This document shows positions 4,487 through 37,560 of a stretch of DNA of 52,975 nt, piece by piece; within the stretch, counting starts at the first letter, position 1, and each line of letters begins with the position of its first letter. The stretch lies in NCBI GenBank assembly GCA_902797025.1, contig CADBRN010000071.1, positions 1 to 52,975 of the forward strand, read 5' to 3'. The translations under genes were made by a program, and so were the position numbers. The stretch comes from an uncultured Lachnospiraceae bacterium. GTDB lineage: Bacteria; Bacillota; Clostridia; Lachnospirales; Lachnospiraceae. The notes beneath the pieces are model-generated. The model was not told the DNA's origin, did not search any database, and worked only from the letters and a program-made list of their open reading frames with translations.

Positions 4487-7400
4487 TTATTTTTTCTGAT
4501 CCGCATCCTCTGTAGAATCCGTATGGTTTTTCGTATTCAGTGAAGCGATCGCGGCTTTCTTCTCCTGAGCCGTCGCCTTGCTGACGACCTGATTGTAAAG
4601 CTTCAGACCGCTGTCATAGTTTCCGAAAATAACACCGTAGACCTTCAGCCACTCTGCCTTGGCGAGGTCATTCTTCTCGTCCGCGCTGCGGTCGATGATA
4701 AGCGGCATATTAAGCTCGGCCGCCTCATCGATTTCTTTGCTGTAGAGCTTGTTGAACGCGTCCAGATCCTCCGCTTTCTTCGGAAGCAGATTCGAGGAGA
4801 GAACGGCCAGATCTGCCTTCTGTTTCAGAAGGGTCTTCAGATCCCAGTCGTCGGATGCCCCCGCGTAGGTCACCGCATCCTCTTTGGTGTAATCCTTCTC
4901 CATTCTCTTCTTCACGGAATCGACCCGGACATCCTCCGCTTTGATCCCGAGCATGCGGACCGCGCCGATGCTTCCGATCTGATCCAGCACATCAAGCGCT
5001 TCCGCTGAGGCGACGTATGCATTTCCGACCGGCTGGCGGATGATTACCGTTTCCTTGTCAAGACCGGCCGGAACCTCGATTCCTTCCGGCACGACAAGAT
5101 ATTTGACAATATCCTGCTGATATACGTCCGTCGTGGAATTGTCCGCCGCCGGCGACTCTTCCACATCCGATGTGCCGGCCTGCGCTGCGCCATCCTGTGC
5201 CTGTGCGGTTCCGTTTTCCGCATCATCTGCAGTATCTGCATCGCTTCCGGAGTTTTTCGCGCTCTCATCCGCAGCTGTTTTCGCGCTGTCGTCCGCGTCT
5301 TTGTTCGCGCTGTCCTCCTCGTTTTCTCTCGCGGTATCGCTGACCTCATTAATCTCGATCAGATAAATGTCGTCGTCATACGAAAAAATCCTGACATAAT
5401 CGGAATAATTGACCGCGACCTCTCCTTTTGCCGTGAGGCCGGTGATCGCCGGCGCCGTCTCGTCAAACTTCGTCGTGTTCTCGGAAAGGGAAGCGCCCGC
5501 GCTGCTGCCGTCCTTTGTGCCGACATACAGTGTATAGCTGATCCAGTGCGGGGTGGACATCGCCGTCGTCAGAGCCTCGATCGACGTATTCGCGTTCTTG
5601 TTGACCGGGATCGTGAAGGTGTTGGATCCCGAAACTGTCTGCCCGAGGGAACGAACCTGCGAGTAAGAACTCGTTCCGCCGCTCGTCTGTGAGAAATGAA
5701 TCGTCGCGTACAGCTGGCCGTTCTTTTCAAACACGTTCAGGCAGGAAATTCTTGCACGGCCGGAGCCGCCGGACCAGCTGAAGGTATATCCGCTCACCGA
5801 TGCGCTTCCGGACGTCGATCCTTTCGCCGATGTATCCTTTCCTCTTCCATCCGTCTGTTCTCTGCTCTGTCCGGACGTCTGCCCGCTGTTCCGGCCTCCT
5901 GTCTGCGTCCGGCCATCTCCCGCGTTACCACCCTGTGTGTTCCCGCTGTTTTCTTCCGGAGACGGATTGTCGGCGATCGTCGGATCGTCGCTGTGATCCG
6001 CGGTGATCGTTTTCGTGTTCCAGTCAAGGGTCAGTTTCCGCCCGAACCATTTCTGCTCCCTGTCGGAAAGCGCCGCCAGTTTCACCGTATTCTCTGATGC
6101 AGTCACCGGAATGCTGAATTCATACTTCCCGTCGCTGTCCGCAAAGAAACGGATTCTCGATGACACTCTGGATGTGGAGGCTTCCGACGTACTGCCTTTG
6201 TACAGATACTTGTAACCCGTCCCGCCGAGAGTGATAAGGAGCGTCCGGTTTGATCCGGATCCGGTGACAAATGCGGATGTCACCCGGAACATTTTGAAAT
6301 TGTTCACGACCGTCCACTGATTGGAAGCGGTCTTATCCGCCGTAAGTTTCACCGGAACAACCGCGTCGCCGTTTACCGTATATTCGAGCGTCTGCGGCTT
6401 GTAACCGTCCGCCGTCACCGTGACCGTGTACTTTGCGCCGTCTCTGAGCGTAAAACTTCCGTCCGTTTCCGCCGACACAGCCGTTCCGTCGCTTCCGGTC
6501 ACAGTGAACGATGCGCCGCTGACGGGATTGCCGCTCTGATCGGTCGCCGCGAAGGATACTCCCGCCATCTTTGTATCAGATATCGTCTTCCCATCGCCGC
6601 TGGCGGCGGTGACCGTCTTGTTTGCCCAGTCCAAGGTCAGCTTCCGGCTGTACCATTTCTGCTGCTTATTCGACAGCGCCGCCAGATCGAACGTGCTCTC
6701 CTGATCGCTCACCGGAATGTCAAATGTGTATACACCATTCTTATCATAATACGCAATCCTGGAGGACGCTCTTGAAGACGCGGCATCCTTTGTGCTCCCC
6801 TTATACAGGTATTTATAGCCGGTTCCGCTGAGGCTGATCGTCAGCTTCCTTTCAGAACCGGTACCGCTCATCGAAGCGCCGGTCACCGTGAACATTTTCG
6901 CGGTATTCTTGACCGTCCATGGTTCTGCCGTCCCCTCATCCGTGCCAGCAGCCGGGTCGTCCGTTCCGGTCTTCTCATCCGGAAGAGGCGTTCTCTTGCT
7001 TTCATCTACGGTGATCGTGTACTCATACGTCACCCATACGGAACTTGCCGACATCACGCCCGGCACACGGACAGAGAAATGGAAGGATGTACCGATCGGC
7101 ACCGGAACCGTCGCACGGCTGAGATGGTACGTCTTTGAACCGATTGTTTCCGTCCCCACATCTTCTGCCGCGTAGCAGTTGACGCCGGCCGTGCCGGTCT
7201 CCGGATTATATACCTTGTTATTTTCCGCGCCCTTTACGTATCCGATATAGAAATGCGTAGCCGGTGAGGAACTCCGGTATGTGATCGTCGCGAAGGCGTG
7301 ACCGTCTTTGATCCTGACATTGACCGCGCTGATGCCGGTTCCTTTATGCATACCGCCCGCCTTCTTCTCGAACCCCGCGGAATCATATTCTCCGTCAGGC

Positions 7401-8281
7401 TCCGTAGTCGTTCCGATCTCATCGCTGTACGCGTCACTCCCGTTTTGGGAACCGGAATTGCCGGATGCGTCGCTGACCGCGCTGAAGGAGACGGACTGCT
7501 CCTCATCCCCTGCGAATGCCGTCGGATCCTGATTCTGTTTCAGCGCTTTTTCAGCTCTTCCGGAAGCTGCCTGAAGAAGCGGCTGAGTCTTTTCCGTATC
7601 CGGAGCAGGTGTGGAATCCTTTTTTTCCGATTTTACGACGATCGTCAGTTTTTCGCTGGAGACGCCGCCTGCCGTCGCCCATACGTGAGCCGTTCCGGCA
7701 GATTTCAGCGTGAGTTTTCCCTGGGAATTGACGGAAACCACTCCTTCCGCGTCTGAGTGGTAACTCTTCGTCTGCCCCGCTGCTTCGGACGGCAGAATCT
7801 GCGCATCGACCGCATAGGCGGACGAATCGCCCTCTGTCAGAGTGACCGTATGATTGGACGGGATCGGCAACACCGCGCCGTCTTTGCGATACTGAAGCGT
7901 AACGGATGCCACCGCGGCTTCTGTCCCCGATTTCGTTTCGGAACCGTTTCCGGTCTCCGCCGGTGCGGATTTCTCAGACGGGTTCTTCTCTTCCTTCGGA
8001 CTCTCAGCCTCCGGTTTTGCGGAGGATTCATCCACTGCTTTCTCTTCCGTATCCTTTTCTTTTTTCTCTGTTTCCACTGCCTCGTTCTCTGCTTCTGCCG
8101 TTTTCGTCACGAGCGCGGATTCGGATACCGCAGCCTCCGCCGCTTCCTCCGGCTTCTGCGTCTCAAGGGACGAACCGTTCACGGCCGGTTCCGCTGTTTC
8201 CGAAGCCAGAACCGGTGTGCTCATCGACATCGCCATGGCCGCAGACAGCCAGACTGCAAGAAATCTGTTTTTGTTTCTCAT
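4487..8281 (-). CDS. giant secreted multidomain protein: repeated beta domains plus half a substrate-binding protein
   Basis: A 1264-residue exported protein. Residues 1-27 are a signal peptide; 30-120 an acidic Glu/Lys/Ala linker; about 124-217 an Ig-like (Big2-type) domain; about 302-427 a beta-rich domain; 455-553 and 655-755 two close repeats with the pattern KMF-V, YLYKGST, IPV, KWY/KWF and RKLTLDW; about 572-648 a carboxypeptidase-regulatory-like beta domain; 829-925 another beta-rich domain. Residues 940-1235 resemble only the N-lobe of the substrate-binding protein encoded next door (SYDDDIYLIEI, VVPEGIEVP, PLIIDRSADEKND, EWLKVYGVIFGN), interrupted by an acidic Ala/Asp/Ser insert at about 980-1050. 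There is no LPXTG or lipobox, so anchoring is unclear. The start at 8281 follows GAGGAGG by 5 bases. The repeats recur in the lipoprotein at 35329-35919. Ligand binding (corrinoid, heme or related) is inference. Confidence 0.85.
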   Translation of the reverse strand: MRNKNRFLAVWLSAAMAMSMSTPVLASETAEPAVNGSSLETQKPEEAAEAAVSESALVTKTAEAENEAVETEKKEKDTEEKAVDESSAKPEAESPKEEKNPSEKSAPAETGNGSETKSGTEAAVASVTLQYRKDGAVLPIPSNHTVTLTEGDSSAYAVDAQILPSEAAGQTKSYHSDAEGVVSVNSQGKLTLKSAGTAHVWATAGGVSSEKLTIVVKSEKKDSTPAPDTEKTQPLLQAASGRAEKALKQNQDPTAFAGDEEQSVSFSAVSDASGNSGSQNGSDAYSDEIGTTTEPDGEYDSAGFEKKAGGMHKGTGISAVNVRIKDGHAFATITYRSSSPATHFYIGYVKGAENNKVYNPETGTAGVNCYAAEDVGTETIGSKTYHLSRATVPVPIGTSFHFSVRVPGVMSASSVWVTYEYTITVDESKRTPLPDEKTGTDDPAAGTDEGTAEPWTVKNTAKMFTVTGASMSGTGSERKLTISLSGTGYKYLYKGSTKDAASSRASSRIAYYDKNGVYTFDIPVSDQESTFDLAALSNKQQKWYSRKLTLDWANKTVTAASGDGKTISDTKMAGVSFAATDQSGNPVSGASFTVTGSDGTAVSAETDGSFTLRDGAKYTVTVTADGYKPQTLEYTVNGDAVVPVKLTADKTASNQWTVVNNFKMFRVTSAFVTGSGSNRTLLITLGGTGYKYLYKGSTSEASTSRVSSRIRFFADSDGKYEFSIPVTASENTVKLAALSDREQKWFGRKLTLDWNTKTITADHSDDPTIADNPSPEENSGNTQGGNAGDGRTQTGGRNSGQTSGQSREQTDGRGKDTSAKGSTSGSASVSGYTFSWSGGSGRARISCLNVFEKNGQLYATIHFSQTSGGTSSYSQVRSLGQTVSGSNTFTIPVNKNANTSIEALTTAMSTPHWISYTLYVGTKDGSSAGASLSENTTKFDETAPAITGLTAKGEVAVNYSDYVRIFSYDDDIYLIEINEVSDTARENEEDSANKDADDSAKTAADESAKNSGSDADTADDAENGTAQAQDGAAQAGTSDVEESPAADNSTTDVYQQDIVKYLVVPEGIEVPAGLDKETVIIRQPVGNAYVASAEALDVLDQIGSIGAVRMLGIKAEDVRVDSVKKRMEKDYTKEDAVTYAGASDDWDLKTLLKQKADLAVLSSNLLPKKAEDLDAFNKLYSKEIDEAAELNMPLIIDRSADEKNDLAKAEWLKVYGVIFGNYDSGLKLYNQVVSKATAQEKKAAIASLNTKNHTDSTEDADQKK

Positions 8282-8311
8282 CGCTGCCTCCTCTGAAATT
8301 AAAAATGAAAC

Positions 8312-8347
8312 AACAAAAAGTGTGTGCCGCAAAAAAAGCACACACTT
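8312..8347 (-). terminator. riboswitch-controlled intrinsic terminator
   Basis: A perfect 10-bp stem (GCACACACTT / AAGTGTGTGC, 8319-8328 with 8338-8347) is followed on the minus strand by TTTTGTTG. It lies between the cobalamin aptamer and the start codon of the giant gene, the expected place for the expression platform. Confidence 0.8.
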
Positions 8348-8444
8348 CTCAATGATCCTTTGAAAGTCCGGCACGCAAAAAACACCGGCATGATACGGAC
8401 GGAAAAGCTGAAGCCTTCTTCGGAAGCACCACCTTTTGTTTATG

Positions 8445-8617
8445 GATGCGTCAGCAGGTTTCCTGACTTACAGCTCGGACGTAATTTGCGCCTTCTCACA
8501 CCCGCTTGGCCGGATGCAATGACATCATGCAAAACACTTGCTGTTCACAGTGACCGGATCGCTCAGGACTTTCACCTGATTCTCTTTTACCCGCAGATCT
8601 TCGCGGCACTGACCATC
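8445..8617 (-). promoter_or_regulatory. cobalamin riboswitch (aptamer)
   Basis: Reading the minus strand, the core GGTGAAAGTCCTGAGC, then CACTGTGA, and the B12 box AAGTCAGGAAACCTGC appear in the canonical order. The closing stem pairs GATG-GTCAG (8609-8617) with CTGAC-GCATC (8445-8454). The predicted transcription start is about 4 bases upstream. A terminator lies downstream, so cobalamin binding most likely stops transcription of the surface protein and lipoprotein genes. Confidence 0.93.
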
Positions 8618-8627
8618 TTTTCTAACT

Positions 8628-8656
8628 ATTGTAGACGCCTTCCCGGCAATTTTCAA
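8628..8656 (-). promoter_or_regulatory. sigma-A promoter of the riboswitch locus
   Basis: TTGAAA (8651-8656) and TACAAT (8628-8633) on the minus strand are spaced by 17 bases. This places the transcript start at about 8621, immediately before the aptamer. Confidence 0.8.
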
Positions 8657-8690
8657 TACGAGATTCGCCGATTCCGTTCCCCTGCGCGGT

Positions 8691-9737
8691 TCAGCGTGTT
8701 TTTTCACTGAAATCGGTCACGATCGTCCCGTCCGCATGGTACCGCTGATTTCCGAAGTATTTATTGTGCGCATACTCGATGCCGCCCCAGTTCAGCGGTG
8801 TATAAACCTCCGCGATATCCGGAAGATGGACGTCCTTCAGCGCCCAGCGCAGATATTCCTCGGTTCCGGTCCGGTCGACGATGTATCCGATATGCTCCTT
8901 TCCGCCCGGGGAATCGGGATTGATGTAGTGACGGACGTATTCATAGGTGTTCCGGATAATCCGGATGACACTGTCCTCATCCGCCCATTTGATGAAATCG
9001 ACTCCCATCCGCGGATTTTTCTTTCCGGTTCTTCCAAGCAGGGTGATCCGGAAGTATTTTTCAGGACTTCGCGTCCAGGCGAGATTCGGACACGCGTTGA
9101 CGCACTCTCCGCATCCGATGCATTTGTAACTGTCCCGCTCCGGGCGGAAGTGCACTTTTTCAAGGGCATCAACCGATTTGGAACGGCATGCCCTGATGCA
9201 TGCGCCGCAGCTGACGCACCGTTCCGGATCAAGCCTGGGCTCGGTCATTCCCATGATGCCGATATCCCCCATCCGTACTTTCTGGCAGTCATTCGGGCAT
9301 CCGGTCAGCACGATTTTTACATGAAGGTCGTCCGGAAAGATCACCTTGTCAATCTTCTGTGCCAGCGCGGTTGTATCATAACAGGCGTAGGGACAGACGC
9401 GGTTTCCGACGCAGGCGGATACATTTCTTGTCCCTGCGGCCGGATATCCTTCGCCCCGCGCTCTTCCGGTCTGGTTGATCCCGGTGCCGTCTATGATCGT
9501 CTGAAGTTCGCGGTTGACCTCCGGCATCTTTTCAAAGGGAATGCCGGGGATCTCAAACCCCTGCCTGGAAGTGAGATTTACGGTTCCGTTGCCGTACCGC
9601 TCTGCGATTTTCTGAATTTTCCCGAGATACTCCGCCTTCAGCAGTCCTCCCGGCACGCGTACTCTGGAAGAAGTGACACCCCGCACCTTCGTCACGCGAA
9701 ACGCGTTCTTTTTTAATTCCTTTGTATTGATATCCAT
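8691..9737 (-). CDS. asrC: anaerobic sulfite reductase subunit C (siroheme subunit)
   Basis: This is the catalytic subunit that reduces sulfite to sulfide with six electrons. The siroheme/[4Fe-4S] cysteines are visible as the spaced pair C-x5-C (ACVGNRVCPYAC) and, downstream, TGCPNDCQK. Two ferredoxin-type [4Fe-4S] motifs follow: CVSCGACIRAC and CIGCGECVNAC. Length of 348 is close to the family norm (about 337). The start is supported by GGGGG about 6 bases upstream. It is the last gene of asrABC, 12 bases after asrB. Siroheme derives from sirohydrochlorin, which is also the substrate of CbiK encoded 26 kb away. Confidence 0.95.
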   Translation of the reverse strand: MDINTKELKKNAFRVTKVRGVTSSRVRVPGGLLKAEYLGKIQKIAERYGNGTVNLTSRQGFEIPGIPFEKMPEVNRELQTIIDGTGINQTGRARGEGYPAAGTRNVSACVGNRVCPYACYDTTALAQKIDKVIFPDDLHVKIVLTGCPNDCQKVRMGDIGIMGMTEPRLDPERCVSCGACIRACRSKSVDALEKVHFRPERDSYKCIGCGECVNACPNLAWTRSPEKYFRITLLGRTGKKNPRMGVDFIKWADEDSVIRIIRNTYEYVRHYINPDSPGGKEHIGYIVDRTGTEEYLRWALKDVHLPDIAEVYTPLNWGGIEYAHNKYFGNQRYHADGTIVTDFSEKTR

Positions 9738-9749
9738 GTTGATCCCCCG

Positions 9750-10556
9750 TCAATCCACCATCGTCTTGCTCTTTAAATATGGAAATACCGGCCCGTCGAG
9801 ACAGACGTAAACGTTGCCGATCTTGCAATGGCCGCATTTTCCGAGTCCGCAGCACATTTTTCTCTCCTGGGAAAGCCAGATGTTTTCTTCCGGAAGTCCC
9901 AGCTTCAGAAGTCCCGCAACCGTAAACCGCATCATCGGCGGCGGCCCTACGACGATCGCCTTCGTATTTGCCAGATCCTTCGGCGTCAACTCCGGGACGA
10001 CGGCCGTGACAAATCCCTCACGGTATCCGGGCTGCCCCTTCGCGGAATCCAGCGTCATGCGCAGATCGATCCGATCCTTCCAGTACGCCAGATCATCGCG
10101 GAAAAGAATATCATCCGGAGATTTAAATCCTACGACCGCAGAAAGAGATTCCACCTTTTCCGGGTGATGCGCGTAATGATCGATGACGCCGCGCACCGGT
10201 GATACGCCGGTTCCTCCCGCCACGACGATCAGCTCGCTCCCGTCGTAATCATCGAACACAAAACCGTTCCCGTACGGTCCCCGGATCAAAAGTTCCTGTC
10301 CCTCGTACCGCTCGAACACCTCATTTGTGACCACGCCGACTTTGCGGATCGTGAAATCGATCGTATCCGCACTGATGCCGCTGACCGAGATCGGTGCTTC
10401 CCCGTATTTCGGCATGGAAATTTCAAAAAACTGCCCGGGCCGCACCCGCTCCTCCGCATGATCAAAATGCATCCGGAATGTGTACTCCGTCTTCGTATGG
10501 CGGATCACCTTTTCAATCTTCGTGGGAAACGGAATGTAATTATTTGCTGCTGTCAT
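9750..10556 (-). CDS. asrB: anaerobic sulfite reductase subunit B (FAD/NAD-binding)
   Basis: A ferredoxin-NADP reductase-type flavoprotein that passes electrons from NAD(P)H to the siroheme subunit. The FAD-binding beta barrel fills the N-terminal ~100 residues (RPGQFFEIS), the nucleotide-binding fold contains GGTGVSPVRGV, and the C-terminal cysteine cluster CCGLGKCGHCKIGNVYVC binds a [2Fe-2S] centre, as in dihydroorotate dehydrogenase electron-transfer subunits. Length (268) is typical. AAGGAGG lies 9 bases before the ATG, inside the end of asrA, and the two genes overlap by 17 bases, so translation is probably coupled. Confidence 0.95.
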   Translation of the reverse strand: MTAANNYIPFPTKIEKVIRHTKTEYTFRMHFDHAEERVRPGQFFEISMPKYGEAPISVSGISADTIDFTIRKVGVVTNEVFERYEGQELLIRGPYGNGFVFDDYDGSELIVVAGGTGVSPVRGVIDHYAHHPEKVESLSAVVGFKSPDDILFRDDLAYWKDRIDLRMTLDSAKGQPGYREGFVTAVVPELTPKDLANTKAIVVGPPPMMRFTVAGLLKLGLPEENIWLSQERKMCCGLGKCGHCKIGNVYVCLDGPVFPYLKSKTMVD

Positions 10557-11565
10557 GGTCCTGTACCTCCTTCATTCCCTCTTCCAGATGATTGATAATA
10601 TTGGAAAATGAGATATACTCCGGGCAGATGTCGTCGCATCTTCCGCATCCGACACACATCTGATATCCGAACCGCTCTTTGAAATCCAGAACCTTATGGA
10701 GCGTCTTAAACCGCATCCGCTCGCCGTTTTTCTTCCGGTAGGATGCGCCGCCCGCGACGTCCGTGTACCCGTCCACCATGCAGGAGGCCTGTACGCGGCG
10801 TCTCTCGCCGACCTTTCCGCCCGCATCGTAATACATATCCTGCATCGAGAAGCACGTGCAGGTCGGACAGACAAAATTGCATCTTCCACAGTTGATGCAG
10901 CGGCTGTCATACTGATCCCACATGGAGCTCTTTCCCACTTCGAACGTCAGGTTTTCCGGAACCCGGACCTGCACCTTGTTCTCTGACACGCGGCATGGCT
11001 TAACATCAAGCTCCGCCGCTCCTGCCGCGGCGAGAACCGCGCTCCAGTCGTCCCTCCGGCTGTCGAGACGGAACTCTCCGTCCGCCGCGTCGATGCTCAT
11101 GTCGTACTGATCCGCCGCATTGGTGCCCATACTCACACAGAACCCGTTCTCACAGGAGGCGGGACATCCGATCATAACAAACGCGAGGTTGTCCCGTTTC
11201 CGCGCATAATAATAATCCGGATCCCCGTTCTTCATGTAAATCTGATCCATCCTCCGCACCGCCTCAAGATCGCAGCTGCGCAGAAATACCAGACGCTTTC
11301 TGAGCGGAGGCATCGCCTCCTCCACATGATTCTGCGCGAAGTAAAAGAGCGTCTCGGAAGGAGGAAGAACCGTCTCCTTCCAGGAGTATGCGGATTTCAC
11401 CTCAAACTCGATCTCATCCGGTTCCTGCACGACCGCATACCGGACCGCGTCCGTATCGGAAAAACGTCCGCCGCCCGGGAATCGCTTCGGCGCCCAGATG
11501 TCGTATTCCTTTTTCCAATACGAGAACAGTTTCCCAAATTGTTCCCTGCTTGCTACATAGCCCAT
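10540..11565 (-). CDS. asrA: anaerobic sulfite reductase subunit A (Fe-S electron transfer)
   Basis: The N-terminal two thirds resemble the beta subunit family of hydrogenase/AsrA proteins, and the C-terminal third carries two [4Fe-4S] ferredoxin motifs, CINCGRCNFVCP and CVGCGRCDDICP. It relays electrons within the AsrABC complex in the cytoplasm. Length of 341 matches the Salmonella protein closely. It is the first gene of the operon; AAGGAG sits about 8 bases before the ATG. The upstream region holds a Crp/Fnr-type palindrome placed as for a class II activator site, and the divergent gene encodes a Crp/Fnr protein. Confidence 0.95.
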   Translation of the reverse strand: MGYVASREQFGKLFSYWKKEYDIWAPKRFPGGGRFSDTDAVRYAVVQEPDEIEFEVKSAYSWKETVLPPSETLFYFAQNHVEEAMPPLRKRLVFLRSCDLEAVRRMDQIYMKNGDPDYYYARKRDNLAFVMIGCPASCENGFCVSMGTNAADQYDMSIDAADGEFRLDSRRDDWSAVLAAAGAAELDVKPCRVSENKVQVRVPENLTFEVGKSSMWDQYDSRCINCGRCNFVCPTCTCFSMQDMYYDAGGKVGERRRVQASCMVDGYTDVAGGASYRKKNGERMRFKTLHKVLDFKERFGYQMCVGCGRCDDICPEYISFSNIINHLEEGMKEVQDHDSSK

Positions 11566-21925: not shown

Positions 21926-22468
21926 TCAGGTCAAGTGTGGATTTTCCCCTTTCTGACAAACAGGATGTCCGTTCTCCATGGAGACCGCAGCCGACGCCAC
22001 GTCATACAGCTTCCTGTTGAGCCGGTTCAGCGCATCGATGTAGGCGGCGGTTTCCTCATCGCATCCATCCGGACTCAGGCCGGAGATCGTGACGGCCACG
22101 AGCATACGGCACCGCCCCGCAAGGCTGCAGATATCCGCAAATACCCGGTCGGGACTGATTTGCCTGTCAAAGAGCGCATTGGCAAGCAGATTGGAGACAT
22201 CCTCCAGCAGCACGATTCCATCCTGCGGCACCGGAATATTTCCCACCCCGTAGGGGCTCTCGATTGTACGAAATCCAAGATCCTTCCGCTGTACCCGGTG
22301 TTTTTCGATCCGCCTGTGATTTTCCTGCGTACACGGAATCATCGTCGCGATGTAATACCGCGGCCCCTCCGTGTCGGCGATCAGCTGCTCGGCATACCGG
22401 CTCTTTCCGCTGCTGTTCGGACCGGATACAAGGACGAAATGAGACGGGACAGATCCGGCCATCTTCAT
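21926..22468 (-). CDS. cobU: adenosylcobinamide kinase/guanylyltransferase
   Basis: A 180-residue enzyme of nucleotide-loop assembly: it phosphorylates adenosylcobinamide and transfers GMP to give AdoCbi-GDP. Walker A is [19 protein letters not shown] contains the His that accepts the guanylyl group in Cob[13 protein letters not shown]-like sequence ([11 protein letters not shown]) is the Walker B region. The N-terminus has SGPNSSGKS rather than the commoner TGGARSGKS, so this is a divergent branch common in Clostridia. It overlaps cbiP by 4 bases and is the last recognisable cobalamin gene before jetA. Confidence 0.88.
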
Positions 22469-23928
22469 ACCTCCCGGTTCAAAACGCGGTAAACAAACTC
22501 CATATCCAGTCCGTCCCTCAATGCATCCGCCAGCAGATCGTACTGATGTTCCTTATATTCCAAAGGATCGAAGGTCCCCAGCGATTCGAATGCGACGCCC
22601 TTTTTTCCGCAGAGCGCTTTCAGAATCGCGTCCGTGACTCCCGGAGCGTCAAAAATGCCGTGAACATAACTTCCGTACACGTTGCCGCCTCCCGCCAGAG
22701 CAGGCATTTTTTCTTCGCTGCGCCCCATATGAATTTCATAGCCGGAATATGACGTTCCGTTCAGGCCGGACAGCATGCCATGGATTCCGGAAAAGACGCC
22801 GGCCGTCTGTCTCTGCACCTTTTCTCCGAGAAAAATCGTGTCCATCGGCAGAAGATTCATCCCGGCGATTTCCTTCATTCCGGCCGCCTCCACCTGTTCC
22901 GGATCCGAGACGGTCCGCCCCATCATCTGGTAACCGCCGCACACCCCGAATACGAGCGTGCCTGCAGATGCCGCTTTCTGTATCGCAGCCTCCAGTCCGC
23001 TCTCGCGCAGCCAGCGCAGATCGGCGATCGTGCTCTTTGTGCCGGGCAGGATGATCATATCCGGATCATCCAGTTCTCCGACGTGATCGATGTAGCGAAG
23101 CGAAACATTTTCGTACCGCTCAAACGGACTGAAATCCGTGAAGTTCGAGATCCGCGGCACACGGATCACCGCGATATCGATCATCCTGCGCCCGGACCGT
23201 CCGTGAAACCGCTCGGTCAGACTGTCCTCATCATCGATGTCCAGGTGGGTATAGGGAACAACGCCCGCCACCGGGATGCCGCACAGATCCTCAAGGGTTT
23301 TCAGTCCCGGCTCCAGTATCGCCCGGTCGCCGCGGAATTTATTGACGATCAGTCCGCGGATCCGCTCCCGCTCTTCCTTCTCAAGGAGCGCGACCGTTCC
23401 GTAAAGCTGGGCGAACACACCGCCCCGGTCGATATCGCCGACCAGCAGAACCGGGGCATCTACCATCTTCGCGAGTCCCATGTTGACGATGTCTTCCTGC
23501 TTCAGATTGATCTCGGCAGGGCTCCCGGCGCCCTCGATCACGATGATGTCATTTCCGGAAGCAAGGCTGTTGTATGCCTCCATCACCTCCGGGATAAACT
23601 CTTTCTTTCTTCTGTAATACTCCGCGGCGTCCATATTGCCCCGGACCTGTCCGTTCACGATGACCTGGCTGCCCACATCCGTCGTCGGCTTCAGCAGGAT
23701 CGGGTTCATACGGACATCCGGCGCGATTCCCGCCGCCTCGGCCTGGACTACCTGTGCGCGTCCCATCTCGCCGCCATCCTCTGTGATAAAGGAGTTCAGC
23801 GCCATATTCTGGCTTTTAAACGGAGCCACCCGGTATCCGTCCTGCCGGAAGATCCGGCAGAGTCCCGCACAGAGCAGGCTTTTGCCCGCGTTGGACATCG
23901 TCCCCTGAATCATAATGTTTTTCGTCAT
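22465..23928 (-). CDS. cbiP: cobyric acid synthase
   Basis: A glutamine-dependent amidotransferase that amidates four side chains of adenosylcobyrinic a,c-diamide. The N-terminal half is a P-loop dethiobiotin-synthetase-like domain ([14 protein letters not shown] and [12 protein letters not shown]), and the C-terminal half is a class I glutaminase with the nucleophile in [11 protein letters not shown] and the late His in YVHGIFD. Length (487 from this start) is typical. AAAGGAG lies 5 bases before the ATG at 23928; the open frame extends 18 bases further. It overlaps cobD and cobU by 4 bases each. Confidence 0.95.
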
Positions 23929-24983
23929 GACGGCTCCTTTCCGCATACATTCCTGACGGCGGCGACCAGCCGCTCATTTTCCCCGTGCAGACGCACCGCG
24001 ATCCGGTAATATCCGGGACCGAGCCCGGGATAATTATCACAGTTCCGGATCGCGATCCCGTATTTTCTGAGCGCCTGATCCAGTCCCGGCGATCCGCGGA
24101 AAAGCAGATAATTCGCCTTCGAATCGAAGACGGTAAATCCCAGCGCCTCCAGTTCTTTTTGAAGATAGCGCCGTTCCGCAGGAATCATCGCTTTTGCTTC
24201 TTCCAGAAACCTTTCTTCTTTCAGTGCCGCCACACCCGCCGCTTGCGCAGGCAGCGACACATTCCAGGGCTGGGTACATCCGGACAGTTTCTCAAGCAGT
24301 TCTCCATCCGCACAGAGACAGTATCCGAGACGCACGCCGGCCATCCCGTAACTTTTCGTAAATGCCTTCAGTATAAACAGCTCCGGATGGTCCGAAAGAA
24401 ACCCCTTCATGCTGATTCCGTCATCGGACAGCGCGAGAAATGTCTCGTCAAGAAAAAGTCCGGCTCCGGTCCGGTGACAGAAGTCCAGAACCTCTTCCAG
24501 TATGTCTCCCGGGATCAGCCGTCCCGTCGGATTGTTGGGATTGCAGAGAAAGACGGCTTCCGGCCCGACCGAATTCAAAAAGTCCGGAAAGCCGCCGTCC
24601 GGATCAAAGGAGTTTTCCTCACACAGCGGATAGCGTTCCACCCGGCACCCGGTCCGCTCAAGCCCGAGGGAATACTCGGAAAATGTCGGCGCGAACTCCA
24701 CGGCGGTTTTCGCTTTGATCGCTTCACAGTAAGCGTAAATCAGTTCTGCGGCTCCGTTTCCGCACAGAATATACTCCTCCGGAAGCCCCTCTGCGGCGGC
24801 GATGGCGCGCCTGAGTTCCCGGCAGTATGGATCCGGATAATGGTATAACTCCGGCAGCACCCTTCTTATCGCGTCAAGAACCCCATTTGGGGTTCCGAAG
24901 GGATTTGTATTGGAGGAAAAATCCAGAATCACGTTGTCTTCATAAACATCCCCGCCGTGGGGATTCTTTGTCCGGTAAAGCAA
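23925..24983 (-). CDS. cobD: threonine-phosphate decarboxylase (PLP enzyme)
   Basis: A class I/II aminotransferase-fold enzyme that decarboxylates L-threonine O-3-phosphate to (R)-1-amino-2-propanol phosphate, the linker of the nucleotide loop. The N-terminus [13 protein letters not shown] is characteristic of CobD and histidinol-phosphate aminotransferases; the PLP lysine is in [17 protein letters not shown], with NPNNPTGR before it. Length of 352 is normal. Placement between cbiB and cbiP argues for the cobalamin role rather than histidine synthesis. It overlaps cbiP by 4 bases and begins 22 bases after cbiB. Confidence 0.92.
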
Positions 24984-25005
24984 GTCAATCTCCTTATATC
25001 CAATC

Positions 25006-25983
25006 TCAGAACAAGCCTCCGGTCCACAGGATCATGAACCTGATCACACTGAAAATAATAAGAGCGGTCCACGCAGTCGCATACATCAGGCGGCAGGCGC
25101 GGGGAATGTCGTTATGTTCAATCTCGCGCAGCGCGTCTCCGATGTATTTCTTTTTATGAAGAGCCCCGTGATACCACGCGTCGCCTGCAAGACGCAGTCC
25201 GAGAAGCCCTGCGCAGACGGATTCCGTCTGCGCGGAATTCGGACTCGCGTGGTTGAAGCGGTCCCGCCGGAAGATTTTCCATCCGTTCTTTACATCCAGG
25301 CGGAGGAAAAATCCCGCGGCGAGCATCAGAAGCGCTGAAATGCGGGCGGGAATAAAATTCACGACGTCATCCATTTTTGCCGGTACCCGTCCGATATTCT
25401 TATACGGCGGTTCCACATACCCGAGCATCGAATCCATCGTATTGACCGCCTTGTAAAAAAATCCGAGCGGCGCGCCCCCGATGGCGAGAAAAAACAGCGG
25501 AGCAATGACGCCGTCGGAAGTATTTTCCGCCACCGTCTCCACAGCGGCACGCGTGACTCCCGCATCGTCAAGCCGTTCCGTGTCACGTCCGACGATCATC
25601 GAGACGGCCCGCCTGGATTTTTCAATATCACCGGTCTCCAGTGCATAATAAACTTTCATGCTCTCGTCCCGGAGCGATTTCGCCGCGAGGATCTGCCAGC
25701 ACATCACACTTTCGACCGCAAGACGCAGATACGGACTGATCCTGTGACAGCCGAACAGAATGAGCGCCGGGGTGATGCCCGAGATCAGGACGACGAGAAT
25801 CCACAGAAGGAGGCCCGCTGTCCGTTCGCCGGACTCATTTTTCGGGAACACACGCCGGAGCGCATGTTCCAGCGCGGCGATCAGTTTTCCGATCAGAACG
25901 ACCGGGTGCGGAAATCCGTGAGGATCCCCGATGAGCCGGTCGATTCCGAAACCGATAATCATAGCGGCAAGCGACCATTTCAT
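25006..25983 (-). CDS. cbiB: adenosylcobinamide-phosphate synthase
   Basis: A 325-residue integral membrane protein that joins cobyric acid to aminopropanol phosphate. Family marks include GFGIDRLIGDPHGFPHPV at the N-terminus, RDTERLDDAGVTRAAVETVAEN-type sequence in the middle (VETVAENTSDGVIAPLFF) and PARISALLML later, with four to five membrane helices. It overlaps the cbiJET gene by 4 bases (ATGA) and precedes cobD, whose product supplies its substrate. Confidence 0.95.
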   Translation of the reverse strand: MKWSLAAMIIGFGIDRLIGDPHGFPHPVVLIGKLIAALEHALRRVFPKNESGERTAGLLLWILVVLISGITPALILFGCHRISPYLRLAVESVMCWQILAAKSLRDESMKVYYALETGDIEKSRRAVSMIVGRDTERLDDAGVTRAAVETVAENTSDGVIAPLFFLAIGGAPLGFFYKAVNTMDSMLGYVEPPYKNIGRVPAKMDDVVNFIPARISALLMLAAGFFLRLDVKNGWKIFRRDRFNHASPNSAQTESVCAGLLGLRLAGDAWYHGALHKKKYIGDALREIEHNDIPRACRLMYATAWTALIIFSVIRFMILWTGGLF

Positions 25984-27971
25984 GTTTCATCGCCTCCGGC
26001 CTGCATCGTGAAAATATAGATCGGATTCTGTCCCGTCATCAGATGGTAGTTTCCAGCCGCTCTGTCGCGGGCAACCTGCATCGATACTACCCCGGTTTCA
26101 GAGAACGGAAATTCTTTCATGCAGGCAGTCAGCTCAGCGACGGACTCCAGCGTAACCGCCGTCGCGACGATACGGACACGGGGGTTCTTCGCAAGAAGCA
26201 GCGAGACGATCTCCCGCAGATTGCCGGAACTCCCCCCGATGAACGCGTGGGTCGGGGCGGGCAGCTCCCCGCACGCTTCCGGCGCGCTTCCGCTGATCAC
26301 CGAAAGATTCTCCGCGAAGAATTTCTCTTTGTTGTGTTGAAGGAGGCGGATCGCCTCGTCGCGTTTTTCGATGGCATAGACATGTCCCCGTTTCGCCTGC
26401 AGGGCCATCTCGATCGCCACCGATCCGGTACCGGCGCCCACATCCCAGCAGAGGGAGTTCCCGGTCAGACGCAGCTTTGAGAGACACACGGCCCGGACTT
26501 CGCTTTTTGTCATCGGCACCGCACCCTCTTTTCCGCCGCCGCGCCGGAACAGGTCATCGGGAAGTCCGTGTGTTACGACGGCATCCGGATGATCGTTCTG
26601 AATCAGAACGGCACTCAGCGGTTCAAAGTTTCCATCCGCCAGATGTTCCGCCGAATCACAGGTAATCTTCTCCTCCGGATAGCTGAGCCGCTCGCCGACG
26701 CTCACGCGCACATCGCCAAGTCCGGCGTCTGCAAGGGAACGGCAAAGCTCCCGCACGCCGTTTTCACCGCCGACGAGGGCGAATACTTTCTCATGTGATC
26801 GGACATCCGGAACGATCTTGTGATCGCGCCCGTGGAGACTCGTCACAAATACATCCTCATACGACCGTTTCAGCCGTGCACAGAGATATGAGAGGGAGCT
26901 TAATCCCGGCAGAACCCTCACCTCACAGAAATCAAGGAGCGGCAGCAGTTTTTTCGTGCCGCTGAAAAAGCCGGCGTCCCCGGACATGACCACCGCGAAC
27001 CGCTGGTATTCCCGGTGTGTCCGGATAAAACCGGCGATCTCCGACGGTGCGATCGCATCAAAGACCGGTTGTCCGAAGGACGCGGCGGCCTTCAGCATCC
27101 GCCCTGCCCCGATCAGACAGTCCGCGCGGCCGATCGCCCTGCGCACCTCCTCCGTCATCGATTCCTGAGATCCGGGACCGATTCCGAGAACATCGACGGA
27201 CGGCCTGCGTCTGCAGCCGAACCGGCTGCAGAGAATTTTAATCGTTTCTTCATAAGAAACCCCTTCCTTCGCAGACGGCCGACCGATCACCACGAGTTTC
27301 ACTCCGGCCTTTTTCGCCGCGGATATCTTCGCGTCGAACCCGCCCGGCTTTCCCCCGTCCTTCGTCACCAGATAAGCGGCCGATACCGCATGAATGAGGG
27401 CAAGATTCATCTCCTCTGAAAACGGGCCCTGCATCGCGATGATGTGGGAAGGCATCAGTCCCGCTTCCTGACACGCTACAAGAGAAGCCTCCATCGGCAG
27501 GATCCGTGCATAGACACGGTCGGAAAATTCCTGCATTCTGCAGAATTTCGGGAGGTCCTTGCTCCCTGTGGTCAGAAGGATGGTTCCCTCTGTCTGCTCC
27601 AGATATTCGACAGCCGCTTCCGCATCCGGCACAAGCACCGCATCCTCCGGAAGGGCGGACGCCCCCCGCAGAAGACGGAGCGATCCGGTTCCCGTCGCGC
27701 GGCAGGCCTTGGCGATGCTCTCCGTGATCGAAGCCGCATACGGGTGTGTCGCGTCGATCACCAGATCATAGTTCTCTGCCGAAAGCATCTTCCTGATCTC
27801 ATCCACCGGAAGTCTTCCGGCGCAGACCGTCAGATTGTCCGCCTCCGGAAGCATCGTCTCACCGTATTCTGTCGCCACACAGACCGTCACTTCTACCGGC
27901 TGGGAACTCAGAAATTTCACGAGTTCCCGCCCCTCTGTCGTTCCCGCAAAAATGCAGATCTTATACATCAC
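25980..27971 (-). CDS. cbiJET: trifunctional fusion: precorrin-6A reductase CbiJ, CbiE and CbiT methyltransferases
   Basis: A 663-residue fusion of three pathway enzymes. Residues 1-250 resemble CbiJ/CobK, which reduces cobalt-precorrin-6A (FAGTTEGREL, DATHPYAA, LLTTGSKDL). Residues 257-470 are CbiE, a tetrapyrrole methylase (VLGIGPGS, MSGDAGFFSGTK). Residues 485-655 are CbiT, a Rossmann-fold methyltransferase and decarboxylase (PMTKSEVRA, DVGAGTGSVAIEMAL). CbiET fusions are common; attachment of CbiJ at the front is less so but known in clostridia. All three carry their SAM or nucleotide motifs, so the fusion appears functional. It overlaps its upstream neighbour by 11 bases. Confidence 0.93.
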   Translation of the reverse strand: MMYKICIFAGTTEGRELVKFLSSQPVEVTVCVATEYGETMLPEADNLTVCAGRLPVDEIRKMLSAENYDLVIDATHPYAASITESIAKACRATGTGSLRLLRGASALPEDAVLVPDAEAAVEYLEQTEGTILLTTGSKDLPKFCRMQEFSDRVYARILPMEASLVACQEAGLMPSHIIAMQGPFSEEMNLALIHAVSAAYLVTKDGGKPGGFDAKISAAKKAGVKLVVIGRPSAKEGVSYEETIKILCSRFGCRRRPSVDVLGIGPGSQESMTEEVRRAIGRADCLIGAGRMLKAAASFGQPVFDAIAPSEIAGFIRTHREYQRFAVVMSGDAGFFSGTKKLLPLLDFCEVRVLPGLSSLSYLCARLKRSYEDVFVTSLHGRDHKIVPDVRSHEKVFALVGGENGVRELCRSLADAGLGDVRVSVGERLSYPEEKITCDSAEHLADGNFEPLSAVLIQNDHPDAVVTHGLPDDLFRRGGGKEGAVPMTKSEVRAVCLSKLRLTGNSLCWDVGAGTGSVAIEMALQAKRGHVYAIEKRDEAIRLLQHNKEKFFAENLSVISGSAPEACGELPAPTHAFIGGSSGNLREIVSLLLAKNPRVRIVATAVTLESVAELTACMKEFPFSETGVVSMQVARDRAAGNYHLMTGQNPIYIFTMQAGGDET

Positions 27972-29094
27972 GATACCCTCTCGGCGTCACCATATTGTGA
28001 AGGATTTCCTTCGTCATCTCATTGCCGATAAAAACGGTGCAGAACATATCCACATCCGCGTTCTGAAGTGCTTCCAGTGTCATCAGCCGCCGGTTCTCCC
28101 CTTCTCTTCCGATGTACTGCGTGATGCCGCAGATCCGGTCTTTTGGAAGATGGCGCAGCAGGATGCCGCAGGCGCGGCGCAGATAATCCGGGCGGCTGTG
28201 GCTCGCGGGATTATAGATCACGATGGAAAGGTCCGCTTCCGCGGCCGCTTCCAGTCTTTTCTCGATCTTTTCCCAGCTTGTGAGCCGGTCGCTTAAAGAA
28301 ATCACGGCAAAATCGTGGGTGAGGGGAGCCCCCAGAAGAGCGGCCCCGCTGCAGGCAGCCGTCAGTCCCGGCACGACCTCGATCTCCGGCTCGGGATTTT
28401 CCCCCCGCAGCTCATACATGAGCGCAGCCATGCCATAGATGCCGCTGTCGCCCGAGCATACCATCGCCGCCGTTTTTCCCTGCTTCGCGAGATCGAGCGC
28501 CATCTGACACCGCTTCGCCTCCTGCGTCATCGGCGTCGTCAGAAATTCCTTATCCGGATACCGCTCCTTCACAAGATTCACATACACGTGATAACCGACG
28601 ATCACATCGCAGGCCTGAAGCGCGCGGTCCGCCCTGATTGTCATATTTTCATAATTGCCGGGGCCGATCCCCACAACGATCACCTTACCCAAAGCATACC
28701 TCCTCTTTTCCGCCGCAACCGCGACCGTTACGCCATGAAAAACCGTTTTCTTTACGATCAGTTCATCCGCCTCCGCCAGCGCCGCGCGCTCACAGACATT
28801 ATCTACCCCGGCGACGCTCTGCACGAACGCAGAGGATGTAAATGTCCCCGGAACCTTCCGAAGCACCGACGCCGGATAAAAGACCGGAGTCTGTCCGATC
28901 TCTTCACAATACTGCAGGAGTCCCTGTTCATCTGCTTTCAGATCGATCGATGCCACGCACCGGATCCCGGCCGCGTTCAGACCGTTCTGTGTGAGCACGG
29001 TTTCCACCGCCTCACGGATCACAGACGCGGCGGTTCCTCTCCGGCATCCGATCCCGATATGCAGATTCCCCGGAATTGATCCTCCGGTGCTCAT
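27961..29094 (-). CDS. cbiH: fusion of CbiG C-terminal domain with cobalt-precorrin-3 C17-methyltransferase CbiH
   Basis: Residues 1-130 match the C-terminal (CobE-like) domain of CbiG (GIGCRRGTA, then SIDLKADEQGLL and ERAALAEAD). Residues 135-377 are CbiH/CobJ, which methylates C17 and contracts the ring (VVGIGPGNYENMT, CSGDSGIYGMAA, NPASHSRPDY). The N-terminal and middle parts of CbiG, needed in the anaerobic route to open the lactone and release acetaldehyde, are not in this protein and not elsewhere in the window. The gene overlaps cbiF by 4 bases and the cbiJET gene by 11. Function of the CbiH part is secure; that of the isolated CbiG_C part is not. Confidence 0.9.
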   Translation of the reverse strand: MSTGGSIPGNLHIGIGCRRGTAASVIREAVETVLTQNGLNAAGIRCVASIDLKADEQGLLQYCEEIGQTPVFYPASVLRKVPGTFTSSAFVQSVAGVDNVCERAALAEADELIVKKTVFHGVTVAVAAEKRRYALGKVIVVGIGPGNYENMTIRADRALQACDVIVGYHVYVNLVKERYPDKEFLTTPMTQEAKRCQMALDLAKQGKTAAMVCSGDSGIYGMAALMYELRGENPEPEIEVVPGLTAACSGAALLGAPLTHDFAVISLSDRLTSWEKIEKRLEAAAEADLSIVIYNPASHSRPDYLRRACGILLRHLPKDRICGITQYIGREGENRRLMTLEALQNADVDMFCTVFIGNEMTKEILHNMVTPRGYRDV

Positions 29095-29846
29095 TCCGAC
29101 GCCTCACGGAATTCCGTCGAGAATCCGGGATGGTACAGCATCGAGCGCAGATACTTGTCTCCCATGCAGTTTCCGACGATGATCAGGGATGTCTTCGTCA
29201 GAGCGTTCTCCGTCACGGTTTTGTGAAGCGTCCCGACCGTGCAGCGGAAGATCTTTTCCTCCGGCCATGTAGCTTTGTACACCACCGCGGCCGGGGTGTC
29301 CTCCTGATATCCGCCCGCCATCAGTTCATCCTGCAGCTGTTTCGTGAGAGACGTACTCAGAAACAGTACCATCGTCGACTGATGCGCCGCCAGTGAACGG
29401 ATCGACTCTCTCTCAGGAACCGGCGTCCTGCCGGCTGCCCTGGTGATGATCACACTCTGGCTGACATCGGGCAGTGTGTATTCGGTCTTCAGGGAAGCCG
29501 CCGCCCCGCAAAACGAGCTGACTCCCGGGCAGACATCGTAAGCGATGCCGAGTTTCTGAAGCTCGTCGAACTGTTCCCGGACCGCTCCGTAAATGCTGGA
29601 GTCGCCGGTGTGCAGACGCACCGTCATTTTGTTATCCTTCTCAGCTTCCTTTATAACCCCGATCACCTGCTCCAGCGTCATCTTCGCGCTGTCATAGATC
29701 TCACAACCCTCCCGCGTATAGGAGAGAAGTTCCGGATTCACAAGGGAACCCGCGTAAATCACAACATCCGCCTCGCCGAGGAGCCTTGCCCCTCTTACCG
29801 TGATCAGATCGACCGCGCCGCTTCCCGCACCGACAAAATGCACCAT
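29091..29846 (-). CDS. cbiF: cobalt-precorrin-4 C11-methyltransferase
   Basis: A 251-residue tetrapyrrole methylase. The N-terminus MVHFVGAGSGAVDLITVRG, the YAGSLVNPELL segment and LHTGDSSIYGAVREQ are diagnostic for CbiF/CobM. It methylates C11 of cobalt-precorrin-4 using SAM. GGAGG lies about 10 bases before the ATG and overlaps the end of cbiD. It overlaps the following gene by 4 bases. Length is normal and no motif is damaged. Confidence 0.95.
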   Translation of the reverse strand: MVHFVGAGSGAVDLITVRGARLLGEADVVIYAGSLVNPELLSYTREGCEIYDSAKMTLEQVIGVIKEAEKDNKMTVRLHTGDSSIYGAVREQFDELQKLGIAYDVCPGVSSFCGAAASLKTEYTLPDVSQSVIITRAAGRTPVPERESIRSLAAHQSTMVLFLSTSLTKQLQDELMAGGYQEDTPAAVVYKATWPEEKIFRCTVGTLHKTVTENALTKTSLIIVGNCMGDKYLRSMLYHPGFSTEFREASE

Positions 29847-29850
29847 ATGC

Positions 29851-30990
29851 TTATTCCTCCGTAATATGTTTCAACAGTGTTCCGGCCTGCTTTGTCCCGC
29901 CGAGAAAACCATATTCCTTTGAAAACAGAATTGCGCCCGTGCTCATCGCTCCTTCTGCCCTCTGGTCCATGATAAAGGAAATCCGGTCTGTGATCCGGTC
30001 CATCGTCTTTTCAAACAGGCCGCACTCCTTCAGAATCCGGATCGCGTCGTCGCACGCCGCACATTCCAGCATTTCTGCGATCCGTTCCGGCGGAAGTCCT
30101 GCCGCCCCCGCGTGCGATGCCAGGATCTCCATACGGCAGTCGCCGTATTTCGAATGTGTGTTCAGCATTCCGCCCGCGATTTTTACCAGTTTTCCGACAT
30201 GACCCACGAGCAGTGCGCCCCGAAATCCCAGATTGCGGCAGAGATCCAGCGTGTCTCCGATGTAGTTTGATGTGAGAACCGCCGTCTCCGGGTCAATCTT
30301 CAGCTCATCCTGAATATAGTCCGATCCGTAATTTCCCGGAGTCAGCAGAATATACTCCGTTCCGTTTTTTCTTCTCTGCGTAAGTTCCACGCGAATCGTG
30401 TCGATCAGAGCCTGTTCGCTCATCGGATCCACAATTCCGGTCGTCCCCAGGATCGAGATGCCGCCCACGATTCCGAGCCTCGGATTAAACGTCCGTTTTG
30501 CAAGACGCTCTCCATCCGGCGCAGAAATCACGACGGACAGTCCGCCATGATAATCGGCAAACCGGCATACTTCCTCAACATTTTCGCGTATCATCCGCCT
30601 CGGGGTTGAGTTGATGGCGGCAGCGCCGACCGGCTGATCCAGCCCCGGCTTCGTCACACGGCCGACACCGATTCCTCCGTCGATCGTGATCTCCGGCGTT
30701 TCGCCCCGGGACACCTCCGCAAAAATAAGCGTTCCTTCCGTCACATCCGGATCGTCCCCGCTGTCCTTTACAATGGCGCAGGATACCCGGTCCGGTTCCA
30801 TTCTGATCTGCAGTACCTCCAGATCAAGGGGAATCCCTTTCGGCGTCCTGATCCGGATTGTTTCCATCCGCCTGCCCGTCAGGAGCATGTACGCCGCCGC
30901 CTTCGCCGCGGCAGCCGCACAGGATCCGGTCGTGTATCCAAGGCGGAGCTTTTTCCCCTCTTTCACGACGTATTGTTCCATCGCCGTCAC
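29851..30990 (-). CDS. cbiD: cobalt-precorrin-5B C1-methyltransferase
   Basis: A 379-residue protein of the CbiD family, marked by LRLGYTTGSCAAAAAKAA near the N-terminus, SGDDPDVTEG, and GTTGIVDPMSEQAL in the middle. It methylates C1 in the anaerobic pathway. The start is uncertain: GTG at 30990 overlaps the stop of cbiC as GTGA, while ATG at 30981 lies three codons later. Neither has a strong ribosome binding site, which suggests translation by re-initiation after cbiC. Confidence 0.94.
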   Translation of the reverse strand: MTAMEQYVVKEGKKLRLGYTTGSCAAAAAKAAAYMLLTGRRMETIRIRTPKGIPLDLEVLQIRMEPDRVSCAIVKDSGDDPDVTEGTLIFAEVSRGETPEITIDGGIGVGRVTKPGLDQPVGAAAINSTPRRMIRENVEEVCRFADYHGGLSVVISAPDGERLAKRTFNPRLGIVGGISILGTTGIVDPMSEQALIDTIRVELTQRRKNGTEYILLTPGNYGSDYIQDELKIDPETAVLTSNYIGDTLDLCRNLGFRGALLVGHVGKLVKIAGGMLNTHSKYGDCRMEILASHAGAAGLPPERIAEMLECAACDDAIRILKECGLFEKTMDRITDRISFIMDQRAEGAMSTGAILFSKEYGFLGGTKQAGTLLKHITEE

Positions 30991-35919: not shown

Positions 35920-35948
35920 TTTCGATATTCTCCTCCTGCGGCACACAT

Positions 35949-37187: not shown

Positions 37188-37264
37188 CTGTCTTTCTCCT
37201 CCTCTTACAAAACAGAAACGAAACACTCACGGGAAACCAGCAGGATAAAAATCGGATCACACCA

Positions 37265-37544: not shown

Positions 37545-37560
37545 ATTAGATACGCGAATC

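Follow-up and report, generated by a model that had tools for sequence, protein, structure and literature searches.

The giant gene and its neighbours

The window analysed here spans positions 1–52,975 of contig CADBRN010000071.1 (assembly GCA_902797025.1) from an uncultured Lachnospiraceae bacterium. Its reverse strand encodes P0001, a giant secreted protein, whose gene is preceded by a cobalamin riboswitch and followed by the gene for a complete BtuF-type receptor, P0002, which starts at position 4468, 18 bases past the giant stop codon (table 1). Our analysis suggests that these genes belong to an undescribed surface system that catches B12-type molecules and passes them to an importer. An earlier note on this DNA had recognized the exported 1264-residue chain, the riboswitch and the downstream receptor, all of which were borne out, and had proposed a corrinoid or tetrapyrrole capture device. 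The Sec-type signal of P0001 was assigned by eye, and no surface anchor was seen by eye.

P0001 carries four small β domains of two types, termed KMF and BD here, and ends in a half-lobe, the N-lobe only of a receptor. A domain resembling CarboxypepD_reg sits between the two KMF repeats. The Ig-like stretch that the note had placed at residues ~124–220 received no Pfam call at E ≤ 1, though residues 142–231 are matched by other long proteins of relatives. A second cobalamin riboswitch lies ahead of an operon for an exported CbiK cobaltochelatase, a small lipoprotein with one KMF domain, a permease and an ATPase, and both riboswitches pass the RF00174 gathering cut-off (83.4 and 99.3 versus 31.5 bits). 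No receptor gene was seen in this importer operon; the window's receptor adjoins the giant gene.

Table 1. Features of the window and, in the last four rows, of related loci named by their L codes, with the basis of each assignment.
Feature	Position	Strand	Basis
Giant secreted protein P0001, 1264 aa	4487-8281	-	Open reading frame (ORF); Sec-type signal by eye
Cobalamin riboswitch upstream of giant gene	8435-8628	-	RF00174, 83.4 bits, E 4e-19
NEAT-like copy 1, residues 313-429, BD type without His	6995-7345	-	Profile matches, sequence
NEAT-like copy 2, residues 455-558, KMF...KWY type	6608-6919	-	Profile matches; own-genome search 4.6e-39
CarboxypepD_reg-like spacer, residues 580-646	6344-6544	-	PF13620 E 2.2e-7, 31.6 bits, cut-off 32.3
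NEAT-like copy 3, residues 655-760, KMF...KWF	6002-6319	-	Profile matches; AlphaFold pLDDT 94.6; NEAT chains are 17 of 50 Foldseek matches listed
NEAT-like copy 4, residues 831-924, BD type, last-strand HxxxY	5510-5791	-	Profile matches
Half-lobe, N-lobe only of BtuF-type receptor, residues 940-1231, Lys1149 at docking-Glu position	4589-5464	-	
Complete receptor P0002	3176-4468	-	PF01497 E 1.5e-24; lipobox by eye
Second cobalamin riboswitch, before CbiK operon	37370-37553	-	RF00174, 99.3 bits
Exported CbiK cobaltochelatase, lipobox	35949-37226	-	PF06180 E 9.7e-72
Small lipoprotein, one NEAT-like (KMF) domain	35329-35946	-	PF05031 E 0.0045, 17.9 bits, cut-off 32.8; own-genome search 8.2e-28
FecCD/BtuC-type permease	34084-35214	-	PF01032 E 1.1e-78; top NCBIfam match BtuC NF003001, below cut-off
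ABC ATPase	32961-34082	-	PF00005; top NCBIfam match NF007082 (corrinoid transporter ATPase) E 3e-62, below cut-off
Cobalamin biosynthesis genes (CbiA, CbiC, CbiD, others)	21926-32964	-	ORFs named by eye
NEAT-like + CbiK fusion, L080	2424-7211		
NEAT-like + CbiK fusion, L089	5325-7202		
NEAT-like + CbiK fusion, L090	5633-7930		
NEAT-like + CbiK fusion, L096	4974-6848		

NEAT-like domains of two types

The two close KMF...KWY repeats noticed earlier (residues 455–553 and 655–755) are 57% identical to each other, and the note's 'further beta domains' (302–427 and 829–925) proved to be real and to belong to the same superfamily. Three iterated profiles, with a KMF repeat, the lipoprotein domain and the C-terminal β domain as their respective starting points, each recover all four regions of P0001, and together they match 307 regions across 77 sources, a set that includes the window itself and some contigs twice. 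Profile–profile comparison of the KMF and BD types gave 97.5% (E 8.2e-12). These shared matches, with the profile–profile result, rule out that the KMF repeats and the further β domains are separate families.

The KMF and BD domains appear to be remotely related to NEAT domains and are named NEAT-like, not NEAT. When compared by hhalign with eight NEAT-family domains of relatives, the KMF type scored 96.2% (E 2.7e-9) and the BD type 87.2%; a control pair scored 0.2%. At E ≤ 1, Pfam NEAT matches 12/39 KMF members (best 2.1e-5) and 7/40 BD members (best 0.006), where DUF7695 ties with it in number. PF05031 has no match above its cut-off in the bacterium's own genome; the lipoprotein domain reaches 17.9 of 32.8 bits. 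When the AlphaFold model of copy 3 was searched with Foldseek, the NEAT chains among the 50 PDB matches listed had probabilities of 0.82–0.99. HMMER searches of PDB sequences with the alignment of the KMF repeats (A3) and with alignment A4 yielded nothing beyond weak hits to unrelated proteins (best E 0.063 and 0.75, respectively).

The last third of the domain holds W[YF] in 39/39 KMF members and HxxxY in 38/40 BD members, at a place where the kind of NEAT domain that has been studied carries YXXXY. The motif YXXXY is found there in 2/39 and 0/40, respectively, and occurs elsewhere in many KMF domains, for example as YKYLY. The His or Tyr of the last-strand motifs may bind metal, and the domains as such may bind a tetrapyrrole. 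In a published account, YXXXY lies on the last strand of 165/343 NEAT domains and is thus not universal, and the members studied often bind heme (PMC4143258). This kinship could mean that the domains capture heme rather than a corrinoid, with B12 control acting indirectly. The cobalamin riboswitch, the nearby cobalamin genes and an ATPase whose best NCBIfam match is of corrinoid type all argue otherwise, and make heme capture decidedly unlikely. The missing last-strand YXXXY points the same way, weakly, because the clostridial NEAT group likewise lacks it.

A conserved half receptor

The identification of the C-terminal region as the N-lobe only of a BtuF-type receptor was upheld: profiles of five half-lobes (A1) and of complete receptors (A2) matched at 99.9% (E 3.7e-34) over columns 44–229 of 395. 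An AlphaFold model of residues 828–1264 gave 31 Foldseek matches at E ≤ 0.001 (best 1.6e-5), comprising siderophore-type receptors and one molybdate receptor, with 151–191 alignment columns of chains 258–326 residues long. PF01497 was not called on P0001 by Pfam at E ≤ 1, and a HMMER search of PDB sequences with A2 matched one receptor, 5joq. The acidic Ala/Asp/Ser insert described earlier is present, with pLDDT < 50 at residues 991–1048; its length varies greatly over the 36 rows of alignment A6, being short in L094 and nil in L095.

A single scan of named genomes yielded 56 loci. The 46 half-lobe proteins counted, each with a single profile match scoring 140 bits or more, without exception stop at columns 213–247 of the 387-column receptor profile, so that none has two lobes around a ligand cleft. 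A complete receptor is encoded directly after the half-lobe gene in 44/46, and the other two (L049 and L072) lie at contig ends. In a draw of 397 genomes from the family, half-lobes are present by score in 26 (E ≤ 4.8e-45), and the best match after these has E 3.0e-25; 146 of the 397 have any match at all, mostly resembling complete receptors by frame length and position.

The half-lobe is under purifying selection. Its dN/dS was 0.05–0.29 in the seven of ten chosen pairs of relatives with finite dS (dS was saturated in the other three), ratios that are rough because dS exceeds 1 in four of the seven. For the complete receptor the ratio was 0.07–0.14, measurable in five of the same seven pairs; rows L069, L076 and L080 were left out because they may pair different receptor copies. 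Given the conserved stop, the receptor adjacency, the low dN/dS and the riboswitch linkage described below, the half-lobe is neither an accident of truncation or assembly nor a product of decay. These features also make it very improbable that P0001 is an ordinary adhesion or structural surface protein that acquired a receptor fragment, for all its long β-rich repeat architecture and low-complexity linkers.

Docking position and ligand side of the half-lobe

After removal of four duplicate loci, the residue comparison covered 53 half-lobes and a set of 67 complete receptors. Column 162 aligns with Glu72 of E. coli BtuF, a docking residue; this equivalence is based on the motif and on a MAFFT alignment, HMMER alone having aligned BtuF poorly. 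By its motif, FhuD-E90 is the counterpart of column 162. FhuD-E90 contacts FhuB-R390 (PMC8660799); docking terms do not occur in PMC4581229. In P0002, Glu205 and Glu344 align with BtuF Glu72 and Glu202, and both counterparts are Glu in 67/67 complete receptors. None of 50 half-lobes has Glu at column 162 (K in 32, R in 11, A in 5, Q in 1 and G in 1, with three gaps besides). Columns 94 and 60 are likewise reversed to Lys or Arg. The charge reversal is local and strongest at these three columns; a half-lobe that is basic overall is ruled out by its mean net charge. With the docking Glu lost or reversed, receptor-like docking of the half-lobe on the permease is not expected.

The columns of E203 and W212 are retained in 53/53 half-lobes. 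Trp, Lys, Met and His at columns 136, 155, 177 and 180, which presumably line the ligand pocket, are present in 67, 63, 67 and 66 of the 67 complete receptors, and half-lobes keep the same residues in only 1/45, 3/52, 1/43 and 1/34 cases. The column of BtuF Trp66 is aromatic in 36/50 half-lobes; Trp66 is the sole N-lobe ligand residue that mapped sensibly, Tyr50 having fallen on Pro.

The earlier note had the half-lobe itself binding ligand in an open form and handing it on. The retained N-lobe core, with its invariant E203 and W212 columns, the aromatic Trp66 column and the purifying selection all agree with such a role. The proposal is nevertheless weakened by the loss of receptor-invariant residues at the four presumed pocket columns, and there is no second lobe to close over a ligand. 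The residue pattern thus makes ligand holding by the half-lobe less likely, and we consider this explanation of the system unlikely.

The partner receptor and importer

In 42/52 half-lobe loci, genes for a permease and an ATPase follow downstream (41 if the L095 permease, which overlaps the stop, is excluded); in L044 and L078 they are upstream of the half-lobe. The motif RxPR, which has a role in BtuC, is found in 42/49 permeases. In 2/56 named loci (L094 and L095), half-lobe and complete receptor are joined in one chain, L094 having the architecture KMF–BD–half-receptor with the half-lobe partly deleted. NEAT-like domains are also joined to a complete receptor, namely in L026, L029, L030, L032, L040 and L097.

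The L094 and L095 fusions show a partnership between half-lobe and receptor, not its geometry. One conceivable geometry has the half-lobe pairing with the C-lobe of the complete receptor in a three-lobed switching device, which would suit both these natural 1.5-receptor fusions and the receptor adjacency in 44/46. Many receptor-invariant N-lobe residues are gone, however, and such a device seems rather improbable.

Linkage to cobalamin riboswitches

The named loci contain 52 half-lobe genes, 12 with the 5' end cut by the contig and 40 with it intact. On the same strand, a riboswitch lies within 400 bp upstream of 22/40 intact half-lobe genes, compared with 18/526 other genes of the same loci, and within 8 kb upstream of 33/40. 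The search profile was built from 19 Rfam-confirmed copies, some of them on contigs also represented in the named loci (L044, L052 and L081); Rfam confirmed 8/8 positives checked and found an upstream riboswitch in 0/7 negatives. The linkage in relatives that the note had named as a check is therefore present.

An exported cobaltochelatase

The window's CbiK passes the PF06180 cut-off (241.9 versus 26.2 bits) and falls below the NCBIfam equivalog cut-off (192 of 400 bits). It is the only CbiK match in its own genome, and a CbiX search finds the same gene only. Because this sole CbiK/CbiX-type match carries a lipobox, an extracytoplasmic site of action is expected for the enzyme. With the genome about 90% complete, the assembly may lack a cytosolic chelatase that the cell has. 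CbiK is present in 32/61 genomes of relatives. A lipobox rule identifies an exported CbiK in 15 genomes (counting copies at inspected loci, not all second copies), and the copy of G006 was in addition judged exported by eye; several of these genomes also carry a CbiK copy without a lipobox. At four loci, L080, L089, L090 and L096, NEAT-like domains and CbiK form a single chain behind a signal sequence assigned by eye. The L080 fusion holds two CbiK units, and L089 matches the NEAT-like profiles weakly (24 bits). In L097, CbiK is split over two frames (7327–8112 and 8158–8940), with a KMF domain at the end of the second.

Elsewhere in the genome (L024, G000:C63), a protein with two NEAT-like domains and, by eye, a membrane segment at its C terminus (4633–5790) is followed by an ABC-2 exporter pair (5810–7395), inside what appears by eye to be a tetrapyrrole synthesis operon. 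Close orthologues of the exporter were found in 5/61 genomes, own included, with 62–76% identity in the four relatives, so that an export-and-reload loop is not general; the idea of a general tetrapyrrole exporter is weakened by the same count. In the window, genes resembling those for CbiM/CbiQ/CbiO cobalt import were seen by eye at 40747–43487.

These genes invite the explanation that the array and the half-lobe are there for cobalt loading outside the cell: the exported CbiK would insert cobalt into a tetrapyrrole bound to NEAT-like domains, and the cell would import the product. It would account for the four CbiK fusions, for the riboswitch control common to the giant gene and the CbiK operon, for an own genome whose only CbiK/CbiX match is exported, and for an ABC-2 exporter beside a NEAT-like gene. 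Most genomes with an exported CbiK have no orthologue of that exporter, however, and some relatives keep a CbiK without a lipobox; together with the CbiM/Q/O-like genes and the incomplete assembly, this leaves cobalt loading an unlikely account.

A broader version, an extracellular cobalt-tetrapyrrole relay, would have exported CbiK, fused in some relatives to NEAT-like domains, load cobalt into a surface-held tetrapyrrole, the arrays pass it along and the charge-reversed half receptor couple the array to receptor and permease. We judge the full relay quite unlikely; if it were true, the half receptor would be a new kind of ABC-importer subunit and the tetrapyrrole in effect a cobaltophore for B12 synthesis.

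Proposed function of the array and half-lobe

The genetic linkage and the fusions give good support to the reading that the system would capture, under B12 control, a corrinoid or a cobalt-tetrapyrrole. The capture device of the earlier note thus stands as far as the riboswitch linkage, the adjoining importer genes and exported CbiK, and the remote NEAT kinship carry it; the ligand, whether corrinoid, cobalt-sirohydrochlorin or heme, we infer, as we do expression when B12 is short. For the whole we favour, at a probability of roughly 0.46, a B12-regulated surface array of NEAT-like domains whose half-lobe would be an adapter to the receptor and importer. It is this adapter role that, at slightly less than even odds, best fits the truncation, the adjacency and the docking-charge reversal.

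Under this proposal, B12 scarcity would lead the cell to secrete a long protein with several divergent domains of the NEAT superfamily, which would bind a tetrapyrrole (a corrinoid, or a cobalt-tetrapyrrole en route to one) outside the cell. The C-terminal half-lobe would be a paralogue of the receptor N-lobe, unable to contact the permease through the canonical Glu and probably without canonical ligand binding. As an adapter, it would keep the array beside the neighbouring receptor and its BtuCD-type importer, and ligand would travel from array to receptor to permease.

Several observations weigh against this proposal. On the side of the domains, P0001's own NEAT-like copies have no Pfam NEAT match, the NEAT chains matched by copy 3 have TM-scores of 0.40–0.54 with no match at E ≤ 0.001 among those listed, and the first Foldseek match of copy 3 is a plant isoamylase (E 0.022), not a NEAT domain. 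As to the half-lobe, 7/50 have Ala, Gln or Gly rather than Lys or Arg at column 162, the Trp66 column stays aromatic in 36/50, and the half-lobe is not basic overall, mean net charge being −17.9 for half-lobes (n = 51) and −21.6 for complete N-lobes (n = 67). In L094 and L095, fusion to the receptor should make a half-lobe that acts purely as a docking adapter superfluous, yet it persists in both; its partial deletion in L094 fits a dispensable adapter, but this is a single case. Half-lobes are also patchy, since 295 sampled genomes of the order gave the own genome only at 1e-30. No riboswitch is present in the available upstream sequence of 7 of the 40 half-lobe genes whose 5' end is intact, including L045, L048 and L087, where 6.7–10 kb could be searched. 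Finally, the window permease reaches 208.6 of 334 bits against the curated BtuC model and the ATPase 211 of 537 against the corrinoid ATPase model, although each is the best match.

Relation to known systems

The NEAT/Isd heme-capture systems (PF05031) offer the nearest likeness for the array, with several small extracellular β domains that bind a tetrapyrrole (as we suppose here) and remote profile and fold similarity. Isd systems are under iron control; here, a B12 riboswitch, linkage to CbiK and cobalamin genes and a terminal receptor half-lobe take their place, and the domains fall below the Pfam cut-off and mostly do without YXXXY in their last third. A clostridial group of NEAT proteins is described as functionally uncharacterized, with up to seven domains per surface protein and no YXXXY; most have LPXTG anchors, and the authors, who do not mention cobalamin (0 occurrences), leave an alternate role open (PMC4143258). 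By description, these proteins resemble the NEAT-like arrays in being multi-domain and YXXXY-less, and differ in their LPXTG anchors.

The half-lobe system encodes a receptor, FecCD permease and ATPase of the BtuCD–BtuF type and keeps the counterparts of Glu72 and Glu202 in its receptor; what is added is a second receptor paralogue that consists of the N-lobe only, has another residue in place of the docking Glu and is fused to the proposed capture array. BtuG and BtuB of Bacteroidetes capture corrinoids at the surface ahead of import, a likeness of function, as the cell envelope differs and NEAT-like domains and a half receptor are used here. The CbiK of Desulfovibrio vulgaris is periplasmic, so a cobaltochelatase outside the cytoplasm, predicted here from the lipobox, has a parallel; the present enzymes differ in their lipobox or NEAT-like fusion, their Gram-positive hosts and their riboswitch-led operons. 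No description of half-lobes or NEAT-like domains under B12 control was found among the open-licence PMC titles listed.

Competition for B12 shapes gut communities and, to our knowledge, corrinoid acquisition by Gram-positive gut bacteria is poorly understood. Loci among the 56 come from Coprococcus comes, Fusicatenibacter saccharivorans, Faecalicatena contorta, Oliverpabstia intestinalis and assemblies of Blautia and Dorea. A riboswitch-linked capture array in such commensals would offer a concrete, testable corrinoid route. The one-lobe receptor, conserved and with its docking charge reversed, would add a new type of accessory part to the importers. The NEAT-like + CbiK fusions make the puzzle of extracytoplasmic cobaltochelatases testable.

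Other genes of interest

Just upstream of the giant-gene riboswitch, on the same strand, lies a sulfite-reductase-like three-gene operon (8691–11565; NIR_SIR, FAD/NAD and Fe-S subunits). Enzymes of the sulfite-reductase type use siroheme. Inside the cobalamin cluster, a 161-residue ORF at 23925–24410 resembles an aminotransferase by eye and is possibly a broken CobD. The genome's third cobalamin riboswitch (L025 2828–3009, G000:C4) precedes genes that resemble, by eye, those for ethanolamine utilization.

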